64,000 nucleotides of DNA from Gammaproteobacteria bacterium TMED78 (GTDB lineage Bacteria > Pseudomonadota > Gammaproteobacteria > Steroidobacterales > Rariloculaceae): contig NHEF01000010.1 of NCBI GenBank assembly GCA_002171615.1, positions 281,017-345,016 of the forward strand, given 5' to 3'. Each line of letters opens with the position of its first letter. The first letter of the stretch is position 1. The translations under genes and the position numbers were made by a program. The notes under the pieces were generated by a model. The model was given only the letters and a program-made list of their open reading frames with translations, had not been told where the DNA came from and did not search any database. Shown piece after piece: positions 5,648-56,093 of the stretch.

Positions 5648-7057
5648 TTAGATATCCTCTATTTCCATTAATTTTATCTTTCTGCTTAATGTATTCCTTC
5701 CCCAACCTAATAGCTTAGCCGCCTCTAATTTTTTCCCCCCAGCCTTTTTTAGAGCAGCATAAATAAGCGTTTTTTCAATTATAGGGATAACATCATCTAA
5801 TAAAGGTCTATGTCTTTCTTTTGAAAGCTCATTAGTGACCCATTCTGATAGGCCCTTTGACCAATCTTCTTTTTCACTAAGGTCAGGCTCTTGTCCTCTA
5901 TTTATAGGAATTTCATCTATTGAGACTGCCTGGCCAGCTGCCGTAACAGCTACTCTTCGACAAAGATTGATCAACTCTCTAACATTGCCAGGCCAGCTAT
6001 AGCGCTCTAATAATAAAATAGACTCTTCGCTAAAGAATTTAGGGCTTATTTCTAATTCATTAGATGCTTCTTTCAAATAATACTTAGCTAAAGTAGATAT
6101 ATCCTCAACTCTAGCTCGTAAAGAAGGAACCTCGATAGACATAACATTTAACCTATAATATAAATCCTCTCTAAAAATACCTTTATTGACTAACTCAAAA
6201 AGGTTTTTATTTGTTGCTGCTATTACTCTCACATTTACTTTTATTGACTTCAGGCCCCCTACTCTAAAAAACTCACTTTCTGCCAATACTCGCAAAAGTC
6301 TCGCTTGAAGCTCAAGCGACATATCACCTATCTCATCTAGAAAAAGTGTTCCGCCATCGGCTTGTTCAAATCTTCCGATACGAAGTTTTTCGGCTCCAGT
6401 AAAAGAGCCCTTCTCATGACCAAAAAGCTCAGACTCAAGCAAATCTGCAACAAAAGCAGAGGTATTTAGAGCCACAAAAGGGCCGTTTGCCCTTGGTGAA
6501 TTCTCGTGTAAGGACTTTGCTACAAGCTCTTTACCAGTTCCTGACTCTCCTGTAACTAGAACGTTCATGTTTGAGTGAGATAGCCTTCCTATAGCCCTAA
6601 AGACCTCCTGCATTGCAGGGGCCTTTCCAATCATTTTAGTAGATGTATTATTTTCATCAAAAGAAATTTCAGAACTAGACTGGTTTGCTGCTCTCAAAAT
6701 AAGAGAAACAGCATCATTAATATCAAAAGGCTTTGGCAAGTATTCAAACGCTCCACTTTTATATGATGAAACGGCACTATCCAAGTCAGAATGAGCTGTT
6801 ATGACAATTACTGGTATATCACTATAATCCTCAGATATTATTTTAAGAATATCAAAACCAGAAATATCTGGCATCCTAATATCAGTGACTATGACATTTG
6901 GCTTAGATTTTTTAAGCTGTTTTAGAAAATCTTCGCCGCTAGAAAAAGAGCGAGAGCTTAAGCCCGCTTCTGCTAAAGACTCTTCTAGAACCCACCTTAT
7001 AGACTCATCATCATCTACTACCCAAACTGATATATTTTTTTTCAATTTATGCCTCAT
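5648..7057 (-). CDS. ntrC: Nitrogen regulation response regulator NtrC
   Basis: Sigma-54-dependent activator that switches on nitrogen-starvation genes when phosphorylated by NtrB. The receiver domain (about 1-120) has the phosphorylated Asp in VTDIRMPD. The AAA+ domain has Walker A GESGTGKE and Walker B GTLFLDEIGD. The C-terminal Fis-type helix-turn-helix is AAKLLGWGRNTLSRKIK. The sigma-54 contact loop reads GSFTGA, not the usual GAFTGA. I chose the ATG at 7057, which overlaps ntrB by 11 bases and gives 469 residues, the same as E. coli NtrC; a longer frame from 7120 would run deep into ntrB. Confidence 0.95.
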   Translation of the reverse strand: MRHKLKKNISVWVVDDDESIRWVLEESLAEAGLSSRSFSSGEDFLKQLKKSKPNVIVTDIRMPDISGFDILKIISEDYSDIPVIVITAHSDLDSAVSSYKSGAFEYLPKPFDINDAVSLILRAANQSSSEISFDENNTSTKMIGKAPAMQEVFRAIGRLSHSNMNVLVTGESGTGKELVAKSLHENSPRANGPFVALNTSAFVADLLESELFGHEKGSFTGAEKLRIGRFEQADGGTLFLDEIGDMSLELQARLLRVLAESEFFRVGGLKSIKVNVRVIAATNKNLFELVNKGIFREDLYYRLNVMSIEVPSLRARVEDISTLAKYYLKEASNELEISPKFFSEESILLLERYSWPGNVRELINLCRRVAVTAAGQAVSIDEIPINRGQEPDLSEKEDWSKGLSEWVTNELSKERHRPLLDDVIPIIEKTLIYAALKKAGGKKLEAAKLLGWGRNTLSRKIKLMEIEDI

Positions 7058-8156
7058 CCTCTTGTGAGCTAGGGAATATAATACTAAATACTGTTGCTCC
7101 CGGTTGAGATGTAAATTCAATTAAACCTTTATTCTTAATTATTAAATCCTGAGCTATTGTTAAGCCTAGACCTGTACCTGTAAGCTTTGAAGTCACAAGG
7201 GGATAAAAAATAGTCGGCCTTATATCTTCTGGAATTCCAGGCCCATCATCCTCTACCTCTAGCTTAATTACTAATTTATGTCTATCTCCGCCTAAAGTAA
7301 AATTATTCACAGCCCTAGTTCTAAATATCACCCGCCCTTTAGTAGATATTGCATATAATGAATTTTTTACTATGTTAAGTACTACTTGAATGATTTGGTT
7401 TTTATCTACAAAAATTAAGGGTATGCTAGGATCATAATCTCTTATTATTTCAATTGACTCATCTTTCTCGTTTTCTATTACCCCAATCACATATTCAGAT
7501 ATTTCATGGAGGCTTAACTTTTCTTTATTTGGCTTGCCACTTGCTCCTAAGGTCTTATCTACCAATGCTGCTAGCCTATCTGCTTCATCGATAATAATAT
7601 TTGTATATTTTTTTAGATCCTTGGAGGGAAGTTTTCTCTCTAACAATTGAGCAGCTCCTCTCAATCCCCCTAATGGATTTTTAACTTCATGAGCTAATTG
7701 TTGCACAATTGTTCTACTAAGTTTTCTCTGATTAGCTAACTCCTCCTCTCTACTAATTATCTTGTCCCTCCTAATATCTTGAAGCTCTAATAGAATAGGC
7801 GTTTCTTTTAAGCCTATATCCAAGATGGGTGTGGCTATACATGACAAGGGTGTTACTTTGTTTCTAGTTCTTATCTTTATTTCTCTAGACCTATAAGTTA
7901 TTTTTTTATCTAATGCCTTATTACAAAGAAGGGCTAAGTCTTCTGTAAAAAAAATTTGGTCTTGCAAAAGAAGCCCAATAGCTTTGTTTTTACTTATATC
8001 TAAAATATTTTCGGCTGCAGAATTTAGATTAGTGATAGTTAAATCAGAATCTAAGACAACTATAGCGGTAGTAATAAGATCGAAAACATAACCTAAATTA
8101 GCTAGTGATATATTAGACTCGTCATCAGGCCTTTGAATGCTTTGGAAACTAGTCAT
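7047..8156 (-). CDS. ntrB: Nitrogen regulation sensor histidine kinase NtrB
   Basis: Cytoplasmic two-component kinase/phosphatase partner of NtrC. It has an N-terminal PAS domain (about 20-130), the H-box QQLAHEVKNPLGG with the phosphorylated His, then the ATPase domain with N-box IVKNSLYA and G-boxes DDGPGIP and GTGLGL. No membrane segment is seen, as expected. The ATG at 8156 has AAGGTG five bases upstream and is preferred to a GTG two codons earlier. It follows glnA on the same strand and overlaps ntrC, so the order is the enteric glnA-ntrB-ntrC. PII proteins, the usual modulators, are not encoded in this window. Confidence 0.95.
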   Translation of the reverse strand: MTSFQSIQRPDDESNISLANLGYVFDLITTAIVVLDSDLTITNLNSAAENILDISKNKAIGLLLQDQIFFTEDLALLCNKALDKKITYRSREIKIRTRNKVTPLSCIATPILDIGLKETPILLELQDIRRDKIISREEELANQRKLSRTIVQQLAHEVKNPLGGLRGAAQLLERKLPSKDLKKYTNIIIDEADRLAALVDKTLGASGKPNKEKLSLHEISEYVIGVIENEKDESIEIIRDYDPSIPLIFVDKNQIIQVVLNIVKNSLYAISTKGRVIFRTRAVNNFTLGGDRHKLVIKLEVEDDGPGIPEDIRPTIFYPLVTSKLTGTGLGLTIAQDLIIKNKGLIEFTSQPGATVFSIIFPSSQEDEA

Positions 8157-12889: not shown

Positions 12890-15328
<2,439 letters not shown>

Positions 15329-47323: not shown

Positions 47324-48259
47324 CTAGGAACCGCTGAAATCTAAGAAGAAAGTTTCGTCATCAAGTTTCTTCAATAAAAAATCTGTTCTTCCATATCTTA
47401 TTAGATCCTCTTTTACTATTGGAGATCCCGGTTCAAGATTAAGTCTTCCTCTTAAATACTTTCCCAACTGACTATTATCATTTGTTGTATGAATTGCTTT
47501 TCCTCCATCCTGAGCACGAACACAATCAAACGTCATATTGTCATCAGTTAACAATGTAAATGTAAAAGATCTTTCAGGAAGAAAACCATCTTTTCTTGCC
47601 TCTAGTCTTATAGGAAGATATGCCTGGTCAGGATCTCTGTTTTCTTCCGGTCTCTGACCCCAATTTAGAACACTCCTTTGTGCCACTTCACCATTTTTAG
47701 ATAGTAAACTGATTCGAACAGACTCATTATATTTAATCCATTCAATTGTCCCGGGCGCAAGAGAACCAACAATATTAACCATATCAGGAGAATCATCTTC
47801 TGAAGGAGCATAACCCTCAATATTAAGTGAATCTTCTACAAGAGTTTCAAAATAGTCTTTTATCAAAGATGGATCATCTTCAACCATTTGATTTTGCTGC
47901 ATTGTATTAAAAAATCCATACTGAGAGTAATTTGCTGACCCTGAAAAACCTATTTTTGGTACCCCATCTTTCAACCACGAATAAGTTTTTGAATGAACCC
48001 CAGGTCTGCCAGAATAATAGTAACCATAGAAACAATCTGGATATAGATTTTTTATATTAAGATATGCTGAGTGATCATTTCTCTTTTGATGCATTCCAAT
48101 TAATAGATTTAATTTAATCTCAGGATTAATTTGAATTATTTCATTTAAATGCCTGCTTAGAAAAGTTGCAGATGAATAACCACTAACTATAAATAATTCA
48201 TCGCATCTATTTGAAACAGGTTTAATGAGAACCTCTTCATATAAATTACTCGTAATCAT
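47324..48259 (-). CDS. NgoFVII-like type II restriction endonuclease (PLD fold)
   Basis: 311-residue protein resembling the NgoFVII family. Its N-terminal phospholipase D-like domain has VHSKTYSW and the downstream GFSGSANYS, the single HxK/N motif set used by PLD-type nucleases, which act as dimers. The C-terminal half (about 165-311) would be the target-recognition part. Its start overlaps the adjacent methyltransferase by 14 bases, the usual tight link in type II systems. The recognition site cannot be read from sequence; NgoFVII itself cuts GCSGC. It converges with glmS. Confidence 0.82.
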   Translation of the reverse strand: MITSNLYEEVLIKPVSNRCDELFIVSGYSSATFLSRHLNEIIQINPEIKLNLLIGMHQKRNDHSAYLNIKNLYPDCFYGYYYSGRPGVHSKTYSWLKDGVPKIGFSGSANYSQYGFFNTMQQNQMVEDDPSLIKDYFETLVEDSLNIEGYAPSEDDSPDMVNIVGSLAPGTIEWIKYNESVRISLLSKNGEVAQRSVLNWGQRPEENRDPDQAYLPIRLEARKDGFLPERSFTFTLLTDDNMTFDCVRAQDGGKAIHTTNDNSQLGKYLRGRLNLEPGSPIVKEDLIRYGRTDFLLKKLDDETFFLDFSGS

Positions 48260-49307
48260 AGTTTTCTCTTATGGACGCATACCTTATCCCTGCAAAAGCC
48301 TTCAAAACAGATTCAAGTATTACTTTTGCGCCTTTAACAGGTACCGCCATCCCAATCTGTTTTCTGACACTTTCTTTGGAACCGATAAATTCAAAGTCAT
48401 CTGGAAACGTCTGAATTCTTGCTCTTTCTCGATTAGTTAATGCTCGATTTTCTTTCCAATGATAAACGTGTGTACCTCCACCTCCACTTCCTGTGATGGT
48501 GTAAGAGGGTTTACTTGGATCCAGTCTTTTATAGATCATGGACATTTTTGCACCCTTTACATTTAATTTTAAATGATTGGGTAAGTTTGCAGTCCAAGCA
48601 TTCTCTCCTGGTTTGATATGACTTAATCTTTCAACAACCTGCTTAGATTGCCTAGTAAGGTCTTGATTCTTTGCTGTTGAGGGTATTGGTGGTTTGGTTA
48701 ATGCATCTTTAACTGACATTTTTTTGAGTGATGGTTTTGGTACTTTGAACCTCAAATTAAGATCATTTCTTATACCAATAATTATGAATCTATGTCTTGC
48801 TTGAGGTATTCCATAATCTTCAAATTTGTATTTATGCACAGTCAGTTCATAACCTGATTTACCAGCATCTCTCAGTTCATCGAGAATTTTATTTAAGGCA
48901 GTACCCGAATTGGCACCCGATATTCCAGAGACATTCTCTGCTAGAAAGAATTTAGAATTATGATGATTTAAATATTTAACCCCATAACTATAGAGAGGAC
49001 CAAATTCACCATCCAGACCTTTTGTTTCTCCCACATTACTAAAGTCATTACATGGAAACCCATACAAAAAACCATCAACATAAGGTAGTTTTTTTATATC
49101 TAGAGACCTTACATCTGAGCAAATTACTTGTTCGGTATCAGGAATATTTTTTTTAAAAGTATCACAAGTATTTTGATCATAATCTGTAGCAAAAATATGC
49201 TTAAATGATATCTCTTTATTATTTGCGTCTTTGATTTTTGCAAGTTTTGCCCCGAGACCTAACCCTCCTGGACCGCAATAAAACTCCCCAACACTCAATT
49301 TTTTCAT
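48246..49307 (-). CDS. DNA (cytosine-5) methyltransferase
   Basis: 353 residues with the C5-MTase motif order. Motif I is FYCGPGGLGLGAK (about 8-20), motif IV is GFPCNDFSNVG with catalytic Cys (Asn where Gln is most common), motif VI is ENVSG, motif VIII PQARHRFIIIG, motifs IX/X NRERARIQTFPDDF and KQIGMAVPVKGA. The target-recognition region (about 190-280) is short. It protects the host from the overlapping nuclease. A divergent yhbY start lies 72 bases away. Together the pair forms an ordinary mobile restriction-modification cassette between glmS and yhbY. Confidence 0.92.
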   Translation of the reverse strand: MKKLSVGEFYCGPGGLGLGAKLAKIKDANNKEISFKHIFATDYDQNTCDTFKKNIPDTEQVICSDVRSLDIKKLPYVDGFLYGFPCNDFSNVGETKGLDGEFGPLYSYGVKYLNHHNSKFFLAENVSGISGANSGTALNKILDELRDAGKSGYELTVHKYKFEDYGIPQARHRFIIIGIRNDLNLRFKVPKPSLKKMSVKDALTKPPIPSTAKNQDLTRQSKQVVERLSHIKPGENAWTANLPNHLKLNVKGAKMSMIYKRLDPSKPSYTITGSGGGGTHVYHWKENRALTNRERARIQTFPDDFEFIGSKESVRKQIGMAVPVKGAKVILESVLKAFAGIRYASIRENYDYE

Positions 49308-53248: not shown

Positions 53249-54361
53249 TTAATCAAAGCTCCATAAAGATTCTAGCAGGCCTTGATCGATCATATCTCTG
53301 TAGTGACCAGCTGGATCGCATGGACTTGAGCCTGATACGAGATTGATATTATCATCTCTTGCCGATCCCCTTAATCTAATTAGGGGTTCTGTATAATAGG
53401 GATCAAAGATAACCATTTTTCTATCCATAGATAGTTGATCGTCACTGAGAGTATACGTTTCAATAATTCGTGTTTCTTCTCCAGACATTGGGTGTCCAAG
53501 ACCATCGAGCCAGCTAGGAGAAAGATTAGTTGTTTCAATAGTTAGAACATTGTCTGCCCATTTACCTTTTGAAAAGCCCATTGGCGAGGCTAATAGTCCT
53601 TGAGGAGCATTTCTATTATCAAGCCACACCCTTCTTACATTACCAGCTATTATCATTAAATAATGATCACCAGCATCATGGATTTCTAAATTGAAAGGCG
53701 CTCCAAACGCCCTAGGCAAGCCAACCGGAGCACATGTTTTTGCTGGATCTTGCCATGGTTGGGTAGATTCAAAGATTTCTTTACCTTCTTCTGTGAATGG
53801 AATTGGCTTAGGCTCAAGATCCCCAGCTGTTATTCTGAATTTATACCTATTAGTCCAAGCACCAGTTATATCATAATTGAAGCTAGCTGGAACTACGCCA
53901 TAAAAAATATCACTATTAGCATTTATGCCTCTCATATCATAAGCGCTTGCCGCCCCTCCATCTTGAAAATTTCTTGGCTCTTCTCCACCTATATCAGTTG
54001 CCCCACCATTTAATATAGCTCTCTCCATAAATAGTTTTTTAGTTGAATTTCTACCTAATGCACCAAAGGCTTTTAAATAGTCGCCTACTTCTACAGTATC
54101 TTGATCCCAATTAAGTCTAAGCATGGTTCTAACATTATGTGTTTGAATCTGCCATTCCTCGAAACTTCCGTTATCAACCTCTACTTTGATTCTATAGGTT
54201 ACATGAGGGTTGGTAAATCTGACCCATGTTACCTCTCCTTCAATCATAGTTTTATTTTCAATATCAAACTCAAAAGCAAATGAATGATGAGAAAAGGAAT
54301 AATTTATTTTAATTAGATAGAAAAAAATAATAAATAAAAAGGCTTTAATTAATTTTGACAT
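53249..54361 (-). CDS. DUF6152-type exported protein (copy 4), at end of nitrile hydratase operon
   Basis: 370 residues. The signal peptide (about 1-24) is followed by SHHSFAFEF. The DUF6152 domain has TNPHVTYRIK and LRLNW (about residues 50-90). The C-terminal domain has KTCAPVGLPRAF, NRNAPQG, SKGKWADNVLTIETTNL and SSPCDPAGHYRD. This architecture matches the pair at 24580-26657. Its start lies 3 bases after DUF2721, so it is the last gene of the run that includes nitrile hydratase. Function unknown. The C-terminus is longer than in the other copies. Confidence 0.8.
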   Translation of the reverse strand: MSKLIKAFLFIIFFYLIKINYSFSHHSFAFEFDIENKTMIEGEVTWVRFTNPHVTYRIKVEVDNGSFEEWQIQTHNVRTMLRLNWDQDTVEVGDYLKAFGALGRNSTKKLFMERAILNGGATDIGGEEPRNFQDGGAASAYDMRGINANSDIFYGVVPASFNYDITGAWTNRYKFRITAGDLEPKPIPFTEEGKEIFESTQPWQDPAKTCAPVGLPRAFGAPFNLEIHDAGDHYLMIIAGNVRRVWLDNRNAPQGLLASPMGFSKGKWADNVLTIETTNLSPSWLDGLGHPMSGEETRIIETYTLSDDQLSMDRKMVIFDPYYTEPLIRLRGSARDDNINLVSGSSPCDPAGHYRDMIDQGLLESLWSFD

Positions 54362-54364
54362 AAT

Positions 54365-54829
54365 TTAATCTAGATTTAATTTGATTTTTGCTATTACAGA
54401 TTCACTTCCCTTTAGTTTACTATGCATAGAGCTTCTTGCAATAAAAACTTCAAATACCATCGAAATCAAAGAAATTAACAGCATCATCATACATATAATA
54501 AATAAAGATGCGATTAGGAAGTAGAAATCAATATTTGTAATTGCACTTAAGAAAATAAAAATAATAACAAAACATACTGTTAATAGGTTGGCAGCGGCAA
54601 GAGAAATGCTTAGGTAGACAAGAGAGCTTCTTTTAATTAACTTTTGTTTAGCATTTTCAATAATTATTTTATCATCAGGCTCGTCAGCCTCCACGCCTAT
54701 TGCTTGCATTATTCTCATTCTATCTTTTATGCGAGATAGTCTACCCATCATTACATTTAAAAGAGCACTTACGCCTGTTAGAAGAAATACAGGAGTTACA
54801 GCAGCTTGCATTGCAATTATGATATCCAT
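54365..54829 (-). CDS. DUF2721 family membrane protein
   Basis: 154 residues with three predicted membrane helices (about 8-25, 72-95, 100-130). The N-terminus AMQAAVTPVFLLTGVSALLNVMMGRLSRIKDR is characteristic of DUF2721. Function unknown. Its ATG overlaps the stop of the nitrile hydratase beta C-terminal gene by one base, so it belongs to that operon. Confidence 0.82.
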   Translation of the reverse strand: MDIIIAMQAAVTPVFLLTGVSALLNVMMGRLSRIKDRMRIMQAIGVEADEPDDKIIIENAKQKLIKRSSLVYLSISLAAANLLTVCFVIIFIFLSAITNIDFYFLIASLFIICMMMLLISLISMVFEVFIARSSMHSKLKGSESVIAKIKLNLD

Positions 54830-55131
54830 TAGTTAATCCAATGCTCATATATTTCAAGCTCTAATGTATCAGATTTTTCTCCAGAATAATTCGGCCAAAT
54901 ATCTTTTTGGTAAAATCTGCATCTATACAAAGGTATTAATTTAGGCTCGGGCACTTGATGAGCAATCTGTTCAGGGTTGGGAAAATTACCACAGTATCTT
55001 TCGATAATTCCTATTTTTCCTCTAATATACGCAGGAGTTCTGCAATGGCCTTCTGATGTTCGGTCATCTATCTTTATCTTATCAAAATTTTTATATTTAG
55101 GTTTTGTGATCTCTTTCTTCTTATTCATCAT
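54829..55131 (-). CDS. Nitrile hydratase beta subunit, C-terminal domain as a separate gene
   Basis: 100 residues matching only the C-terminal barrel of nitrile hydratase beta: GHCRTPAYIRGKIGIIERYCG, then LYRCRFYQKDIW and a final LELEIYEHWIN. In most enzymes this is joined to a helical N-terminal part in one subunit of about 220 residues. Here the N-terminal part is fused to the alpha subunit in the gene just upstream, overlapping by 4 bases (ATGA). Split beta subunits are known in thiocyanate hydrolase and toyocamycin nitrile hydratase, but the exact arrangement here differs. Expected to assemble with the upstream product. Confidence 0.88.
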   Translation of the reverse strand: MMNKKKEITKPKYKNFDKIKIDDRTSEGHCRTPAYIRGKIGIIERYCGNFPNPEQIAHQVPEPKLIPLYRCRFYQKDIWPNYSGEKSDTLELEIYEHWIN

Positions 55132-56093
55132 ATTTTAGGAATCCTAACACCTACAAGATGATCCCGAGAAATTATTGAGGTTAGTTTTTCCTCACCCCAT
55201 TTTTCCGTACCTTCAGGCCTTACTGGTAAGATTAAATATCTCATATCAGCATTAGAGTCATGGACTCTTATTTCAACGTCTTGAGCTAATACAGTGCCAA
55301 ATTCAGCTAATACTGATCTTGGCTCATGAACAACTCTAGATCTATAGCTCCTAGATTTATACCAAGTAGGCGGCATGCCTAATAATGTTCTTGGGTAGCA
55401 GGAGCAGAGAGTGCAGACAACCATATGATGTATAGAAGAAGATTGAGGCATACATATTATATCTGCAAAAGTTTCAAGCTTTATTCCGATGCTCGCTATA
55501 GCATCTTTGGCATTATCAATTAAATATTCTCTAAATTGATCATCTTGCCAGGCTTTGGCAACAACTTTAATACCTCTACTAGGAAATTCGTTATCGAACT
55601 GATCTATTTTTGTGTGTATGTCATTCATTGATATTATATTTTTCTCACTCAATAATTCAGCAATAGCCATCATTCTAAGGAAGTAATCTGGAGGACCCTC
55701 ACCATATTCATCTTCAACAAAATCTTTTTTTTGATGAGGCGCTTCATGATTATCATGAAGATGATTGATAGATTCTTTGTTTGGAAGATCTATAATTGGA
55801 ATATCAAACTTTTTTTTAATAATAGGTATTTTATCTTTAAGCTCCTTCTCTGAAATCAACTGTTTTTTGATTACACATGAAATCATAGCCATGCTATTTC
55901 TTTCGAAGTATTCCATTTTAAAGTAGTCATCTCCTAAAGATTCAGAAGCTAGTCTAAGCTCATCGAGTACAATAATTTTTTTTGCAGAAATAGCTATTCG
56001 AAGGCCATTAGAAAATTTTTCCCAGTAGTTCATACTTTGGTTTTCGAGATTTATGCTCTCAGCTCGTTCTCCACCAACATCATGAGGTCCCAT
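55128..56093 (-). CDS. Nitrile hydratase: beta N-terminal domain fused to alpha subunit (cobalt type)
   Basis: 321 residues. Residues 1-95 match the start of nitrile hydratase beta: MGPHDVGGER, WEKFSNGL, LDELRLASESLG, and EYFERN. Residues about 125-321 match the alpha subunit: ARVVAKAW-like VVAKAWQDDQFR, the metal claw VCTLCSCYPR (three Cys and Ser), WYKSRSYRSRVVHEPRSVLAEFG, and the ending SRDHLVGVRIP. CTLCSC indicates the cobalt form. The reaction is hydration of nitriles to amides. The enzyme might instead be a related hydrolase for thiocyanate. No separate cobalt chaperone or amidase gene is seen in the window. Confidence 0.92.
   Translation of the reverse strand: MGPHDVGGERAESINLENQSMNYWEKFSNGLRIAISAKKIIVLDELRLASESLGDDYFKMEYFERNSMAMISCVIKKQLISEKELKDKIPIIKKKFDIPIIDLPNKESINHLHDNHEAPHQKKDFVEDEYGEGPPDYFLRMMAIAELLSEKNIISMNDIHTKIDQFDNEFPSRGIKVVAKAWQDDQFREYLIDNAKDAIASIGIKLETFADIICMPQSSSIHHMVVCTLCSCYPRTLLGMPPTWYKSRSYRSRVVHEPRSVLAEFGTVLAQDVEIRVHDSNADMRYLILPVRPEGTEKWGEEKLTSIISRDHLVGVRIPKI

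Follow-up and report, generated by a model that had tools for sequence, protein, structure and literature searches.

The window, by which we mean the whole 64,000-nucleotide stretch of DNA analysed here, contains on its reverse strand a gene (55128..56093, (-)) for a 321-residue protein that carries two domains of the nitrile hydratase (NHase) family in one chain. Residues 2-95 (55809..56090, (-)) match the N-terminal domain of the beta subunit (betaN, PF21006) with an E-value of 2.9e-11 and 43.9 bits against a Pfam cut-off of 21.5; the position of this domain in the betaN tree and its fold similarity, both described below, point the same way. Residues 139-316 (55146..55679, (-)) match the alpha subunit (PF02979) with an E-value of 3.9e-69 and 232.2 bits against a cut-off of 27.2. 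The linker between the two domains, residues 96-138 (55680..55808, (-)), is marked in alignments by conserved H-x-H and GEGPP motifs, and the alpha domain includes the metal claw C227-T-L-C230-S-C232 (55398..55415, (-)); we take this CTLCSC motif to be of the cobalt type in NHase alpha. The next gene (54829..55131, (-)), whose start overlaps the stop of the fusion gene by 4 nt, encodes a 100-residue protein that matches the C-terminal barrel of the beta subunit (betaC, PF02211) over residues 5-99 (E-value 6e-19, 68.8 bits against a cut-off of 27.7), and the pair passes the Pfam cut-offs for NHase_alpha, NHase_beta_N and NHase_beta_C alike. This bears out a preliminary description of the locus, in which the first gene had been read as the start of a beta subunit joined to an alpha subunit with the CTLCSC claw, and the second as the beta C-terminal barrel by itself.

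Two further genes lie downstream on the same strand: one for a DUF2721 protein (54365..54829, (-)), which overlaps the betaC gene by 1 nt, and one for a DUF6152 protein (53249..54361, (-)), which follows after a gap of 3 nt. Both are probable operon mates of the fusion and betaC genes, and it is possible that this stretch (53249-54829) has a role together with the enzyme; no neighbours of the DUF2721 or DUF6152 type were found among the proteins scanned at L033, a fusion locus from SAR116. Elsewhere in the window, at 47324-49307 (-), an NgoFVII-type restriction endonuclease gene adjoins one for a C-5 cytosine methylase, a restriction-modification pair in a largely housekeeping region.

A gene of this layout could in principle arise from an assembly join or a frameshift, the outcome that the preliminary description had named as the first ground for abandoning its reading, and it had proposed a database search for the same domain order as a check. 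The genome of the window itself (98.77% complete) has a single NHase_alpha match and a single NHase_beta_N match, both inside the fusion gene. The same domain order was found in 6 of the 61 genomes of one SAR116 family (that of the L033 genome), which add 10 further copies: nine align from query residue 1 to 319-321 and one from residue 26 to 321. Four of these genomes have two copies each, while G504 has one and G502 has one, the copy that begins at residue 26. Since a continuous frame recurs in 10 copies from six genomes, the fusion is neither a product of chance nor of an assembly join, and the identical open frame in the six genomes rules out an artefact of assembly or frameshift.

We also scanned genome contigs for relatives using exact peptide patterns, a procedure that can miss diverged copies and that caught four of the six SAR116-family genomes with the fusion. 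It returned 28 loci encoding relatives, four of which (L033-L036) consist of a fusion with a downstream betaC; L033, L034 and L036 come from genomes named SAR116, and L035 from one named Alphaproteobacteria. Each of the four has a second fusion further on that lacks a betaC of its own, and there is one betaC match per genome in the four two-copy genomes of the SAR116 family. The arrangement at L033:6962-9739, repeated in the same stretch of L034-L036, is thus one of two diverged fusion paralogs with an amidase gene between them and one betaC match per genome. In G504 no betaC match was found; the contig ends inside an amidase gene beside the fusion, so betaC could lie beyond. In G502 no credible betaC was found, the sole match being 30 residues long with an E-value of 0.011 and internal stops. 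The fusion copy of that genome (L104, about 6190-7124) is without its first 25 residues, no readable N-terminus being present in any frame just upstream, and is possibly a decaying copy.

Outside this family, we found no other full-length match to the fusion among the genomes of 96 other relatives or among 368 other genomes of the class (E limit 1e-40). Of the 178 matching records in a plasmid collection, none covered 80% of the query, and a scan of viral contigs gave no relative. Two further candidates from the class search, L066 and L074, where the alpha match starts before residue 110, were rejected; their N-termini are unlike betaN, and L074 is the gamma subunit of a thiocyanate hydrolase (SCNase). 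The preliminary description had also allowed that the layout might turn out to be common and already characterised, which is not what we found in the genomes, plasmids and literature searched. The layout is a real, conserved and lineage-restricted variant within a known enzyme family.

For the close pair L034-L036, dN/dS is about 0.11 in betaN, 0.17 in the linker, 0.12 in alpha and 0.14 in betaC; close SAR116 copies are under purifying selection in all domains. Between the window fusion and the first copy of L033, identity is 52% in betaN, 62% in the linker and 69% in alpha. Given the 62% identity of the linker and its dN/dS of about 0.17, the junction is therefore conserved and not a loose spacer. 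The truncated copy in G502, a genome with no credible betaC, might be taken as a sign that the fusion is a non-functional remnant, and the similarity of the alpha domain to the NHLP leader-peptide family of NCBIfam might be taken as a sign of a move to another role, for example RiPP-like or regulatory; the same match is seen in the NHase and two SCNase alpha-type proteins scanned. Both readings are countered by the dN/dS of close pairs, which is well below 1 in every domain, by the CTLCSC claw, kept in 11 of 11 fusion rows, and by Arg47, invariant across nine aligned copies. We regard a remnant or a protein with another role as most improbable.

The predicted structure of the fusion (pLDDT 82.1, pTM 0.70) contains an alpha part that matches NHase alpha with a Z-score of 24.2. 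The betaN part matches NHase beta with a Z-score of 8.2 and an rmsd of 1.9 over 73 residues, which is below the value of about 13 recommended by the tool for helical folds, and Foldseek ranks NHase beta chains weakly for the fusion model, with E-values above 1. A phmmer search of the first 109 residues against the PDB likewise gave a weak best match (E-value 0.019); the betaN assignment for this reason rests on Pfam and the tree.

The relatives of the fusion suggest where it came from. In 22 of the 24 non-fusion loci of the contig scan, betaN, betaC and alpha are encoded separately and follow one another in this order, and the linker of the fusion aligns with the His-rich N-terminus of the alpha protein in these three-gene relatives. 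At least three His residues were counted in the alpha N-terminal stretch in 24/24 non-fusion loci, in 10/10 SAR116-family fusion copies and in 7/8 other three-gene rows. The same holds for 11/28 two-gene rows and for 3/10 SCNase rows, whose count is lowered by an extra segment that shifts the stretch, so His richness alone is no clade marker. At one locus on a Rhizobium plasmid (L091:3576-4932) the gene order is betaC-alpha-betaN.

In a tree of the alpha domain with 80 rows, the 11 fusion rows form one clade (support 100/100), which is sister to 23 betaproteobacterial-type three-gene rows (99/98); the latter group is itself supported at only 84/78. The 28 two-gene rows (100/99) and the 10 SCNase rows (100/100) fall apart from the fusions. 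The suggestion of the preliminary description that betaN-alpha followed by betaC looks like a distinct form is in line with both the Pfam matches and this separate clade. Labels of three-gene and two-gene rows were taken from gene layout, whereas the SCNase label was checked by model score for all ten rows. Stretches shorter than 70 residues were dropped from the tree sets, and the alpha tree leaves out L015, L018, L019, L023 and L051, which are partial or awkward, as well as L107, which is the gene of L074. The window fusion branches outside both SAR116 paralogs, so that the duplication in SAR116 is probably later than the split between the lineages.

The betaN tree, computed by a quick method from few columns, unites 10 fusion rows with 22 three-gene rows in one group with an SH-aLRT of 99; L104 was left out of this tree, which also includes three activator rows and two beta N-terminal rows taken by coordinates. 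The five fusion-locus rows of the betaC tree form one clade (99), which that tree does not place beside the betaproteobacterial betaC.

Two betaproteobacterial MAGs have betaN directly before alpha in separate genes. At L037 (5986-7065) alpha begins 24 nt after the betaN stop with no betaC between them; no betaC was found in this 12.9-kb locus; one is present elsewhere in the genome, in a second cluster that has all three genes. At L055 (1-714) the betaN stop overlaps the alpha start, in a contig that begins inside betaN, so that the locus is seen from within that gene onwards. Both are possible pre-fusion intermediates. The nearest relatives already split beta, and the fusion joins two subunits of a three-subunit enzyme and is not a rearrangement of a two-subunit one. 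Based on this, we suggest that beta was probably split first and that betaN was fused to alpha afterwards. In an ancestor, betaC would have been lost from the position separating betaN from alpha, these two would have become one reading frame, and betaC would have persisted downstream as a small separate subunit; we infer that the departure of betaC came before the fusion.

Three arginines of the pair have probable counterparts in NHase or SCNase. Arg235 (55389..55391, (-)), the residue after CYP, is Arg in SCNases and Trp in most two-gene NHases: Arg was found in 11/11 fusion rows, 23/23 betaproteobacterial-type three-gene rows, 6/8 other three-gene rows and 10/10 SCNase rows, against Trp in 25/27 of the two-gene rows scored (a further two-gene row, L006, which the motif pattern did not fit, also reads Trp). 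The titles of PDB entries 3vyg and 3vyh name SCNase R136W and NHase alpha W116R, from which we infer that Arg235 corresponds to R136 of SCNase gamma and W116 of NHase alpha; the titles suggest that others have already swapped this position between the two enzymes. Arg47 (55953..55955, (-)) aligns with the Arg of the DE-x-R motif of NHase beta, and Arg31 of betaC, in GHCRTPAY (55039..55041, (-)), aligns with the GHTR stretch of NHase beta. PDB titles also name mutants of NHase beta R52 and R157. From the alignments, Arg47 is probably equivalent to beta R52 of P. thermophila NHase, and Arg31 of betaC is the probable equivalent of R157.

We propose, with a probability of roughly 0.65, that the pair is a cobalt-type enzyme of the NHase family, derived from a three-subunit ancestor and built from the fusion and betaC chains, which hydrates a small polar or anionic nitrile. 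As its active form we envisage a (betaN-alpha)(betaC) unit that probably dimerises in the manner of NHase, and in which the fusion chain would provide the Co(III) claw and the Arg47 contact and betaC would provide Arg31. The predicted enzyme would convert its nitrile to the amide, while the fusion would keep the metal-bearing chain covalently tied to its partner domain.

Equivalog models do not place the fusion in either of the two characterised classes outright. On the NHase alpha model TIGR01323 the window fusion scores 222.2 bits, below the cut-off of 249.85, and the two L033 copies score 230.0 and 222.7; on the SCNase gamma model TIGR03887 it scores 187.1 bits, below the cut-off of 291.45. 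As controls, ten of ten SCNase rows pass TIGR03887 (356.8 to 387.9), and the Rhodococcus NHase scores 287.9 on TIGR01323. Seven of the eight three-gene alphas scanned reach the TIGR01323 cut-off (L061 barely, at 250.0), with L012 short at 233.3, and none of the eight reaches that of TIGR03887. We counted the higher score of the fusion on TIGR01323 toward nitrile over thiocyanate.

It is nonetheless conceivable that the two proteins form a thiocyanate hydrolase, or an enzyme for a thiocyanate-like anion, converting SCN- to carbonyl sulfide and ammonia, in which case the fusion would join the equivalents of SCNase beta and gamma. A split beta is also seen in SCNase, the best match of betaC among solved structures is an SCNase subunit, and the Arg after CYP is that of the SCNases and not that of most two-gene NHases; such an enzyme would moreover require no amidase, and GatA is the whole amidase-signature set of the window genome. 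The TIGR03887 score, however, lies far below the values of the SCNase rows, which also form a clade of their own in the alpha tree. The extra segment that SCNases have ahead of the claw is missing from the fusion, which reads GMPPTWYK at the position of GQSPEWYR or a near form in SCNases; the betaC motif is the NHase-like GHCRTP and not FYTRT, and an amidase gene accompanies 5 of the 6 SAR116-family fusion loci examined. We thus consider thiocyanate unlikely as the substrate.

The amidase context was seen in most of the SAR116-family fusion loci. An amidase-signature gene lies on the other strand between the two fusions in all four loci L033-L036 and adjoins the fusion in L103, but none was found near the L104 fusion or in the 15 kb around the window fusion. 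The neighbourhood of L033 also holds a GntR regulator, alpha/beta hydrolases, metallo-beta-lactamase-fold proteins and an ABC permease. For SAR116, the context in L033-L036 and L103 is consistent with a route from nitrile through amide to acid. The window genome encodes GatA (608.7 bits against 481.1) as its sole amidase-signature protein and has no FmdA, which leaves no obvious enzyme of these kinds to use an amide product. In this host the amide may be the end product or be used by another enzyme, or the substrate may differ.

Hydration of a nitrile by a cobalt enzyme raises the matter of how the metal is loaded. PF21006 also detects the Rhodococcus accessory protein, an activator (E-value 2.3e-12), as well as a betaN-like stretch behind an SCNase gene (E-value 1.7e-4). 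Since the family includes activators and its single match in the window genome is the fusion, no separate activator of that family is evident in this genome, and metal loading may be activator-free or proceed via an unrelated chaperone. The alpha subunit of toyocamycin NHase is reported to mature without an activator. An engineered fusion NHase still depended on the activator P14K for cobalt (PMC4709657), which counts against activator-free loading.

A different explanation for the same observations is that the N-terminal domain is itself an activator of the P14K/NhlE type, so that the chain would be a self-loading metallochaperone and not a structural betaN-alpha fusion. Activators are homologous to betaN, as the Rhodococcus match illustrates, the window genome has no other PF21006 match that could supply one, and the covered parts of PMC4709657 describe a changed cobalt-loading mechanism in the engineered fusion. 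The betaN tree nevertheless groups the fused domain with structural betaN and none of the three activator rows inside, by a quick method on few columns and with one activator row (L009) labelled from its position after alpha only. In addition, all 5 loci of the first-copy type have a betaC gene behind the fusion, and this betaC requires betaN as its partner. We find an activator origin distinctly unlikely. More speculatively, the locus may represent a natural activator-free cobalt NHase in which the fused betaN replaces the activator as a built-in partner for loading cobalt into alpha, with betaC as an exchangeable subunit; in SAR116 it would be shared by the two paralogs, so that three genes would yield two enzymes that differ in substrate range. 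We hold this to be doubtful, yet the presence of a fusion pair with a single betaC makes subunit sharing testable in SAR116.

The host of the window is probably a small-genome gammaproteobacterium. No SSU rRNA match was found in its genome, and kinship was therefore judged by gyrB identity and the atp-glmS gene order. The gyrB gene (12890-15304) is 63-68% identical to its counterparts in four genomes from the same family, order or class, compared with 56% to the betaproteobacterial MAG G465 and 54% to the SAR116 genome G461. In the window, a glmS-type gene also lies one gene beyond the ATP synthase genes, an order which we presume to be gammaproteobacterial. While the host gyrB is thus far from SAR116, the first G461 copy shares 63% identity with the window fusion, which makes horizontal transfer between the lineages likely. 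From the relatives of the fusion we would guess that the host is marine.

Among known systems, the three-gene NHase relatives of Betaproteobacteria and of Streptomyces and Rhizobium plasmids come closest: they have the same three domains, a His-rich alpha N-terminus and mostly Arg after CYP, but betaN and alpha are separate chains there and one chain in the fusion. Toyocamycin NHase (TNH) is a characterised three-subunit enzyme, likened here by description and not by sequence, and again differs in that betaN and alpha are one chain in the fusion. TNH is an (alpha beta gamma)2 assembly with its strongest interface between alpha and beta, as stated in the parts of PMC8574189 covered. Such a strong contact would fit a fusion of tight partners if the beta of TNH corresponds to betaN.

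Eukaryotic fusion NHases (Monosiga brevicollis and others) resemble the fusion, in a comparison by description and not by sequence, in having the beta part N-terminal to alpha in one chain, but there the whole beta is fused, whereas in the window only betaN is and betaC is separate. The linker of the Monosiga enzyme is (His)17, according to the parts of a 2020 review covered (PMC7193024), which mention eukaryotic and engineered NHase fusions. Fusions of the whole beta to alpha in eukaryotes were described by Marron et al. (2012), who state that prokaryotic datasets lack them (PMC3323583). The two-gene cobalt NHases share with the fusion and betaC the fold (alpha Z about 24), the claw and the two beta arginines, but have a whole beta gene and mostly Trp after CYP, and form a separate clade.

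A betaN-alpha fusion layout was not found in the literature searched, which comprised titles and the beginnings of abstracts, in some cases the best 20 of many matches, with subscription papers mostly outside this scope. Nor is it described in the covered parts of PMC3323583, PMC7193024, PMC10098168, PMC8574189 and PMC4709657, and no literature was found that links "nitrile hydratase" with "SAR116". Natural fusions in the NHase family have so far been reported from eukaryotes only in the literature, as far as it was covered. The locus adds a natural bacterial subunit fusion to a family in industrial use, where fusions have been made artificially to improve stability. It also offers a traceable path for the rearrangement of a multi-subunit enzyme, from three genes through adjacent betaN and alpha to the fusion, and it hints at unrecognised nitrile or thiocyanate-like chemistry in SAR116 bacteria of the surface ocean.

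The SCNases are set apart from the fusion, as described above, by clade, by the segment before the claw, by the betaC motif and by the gamma model that ten of ten of them pass and the fusion fails, yet most of them share with it the division of beta into an N and a C half, and they also have the Arg after CYP and His in the gamma N-terminus of the two sequences examined whole, as in the fusion linker. Their beta halves and gamma are separate where the fusion joins betaN and alpha, but this is a soft distinction, as the SCNase of Azospirillum (L089:3033-4675) joins betaN-like and betaC parts in one 283-residue chain. On plasmids, three-gene NHases (L090:5567-8017 and L091:4925-7003) lie beside annotated aquaporin and cobalt transport genes (HoxN/HupN/NixA, CbtA/CbtB).
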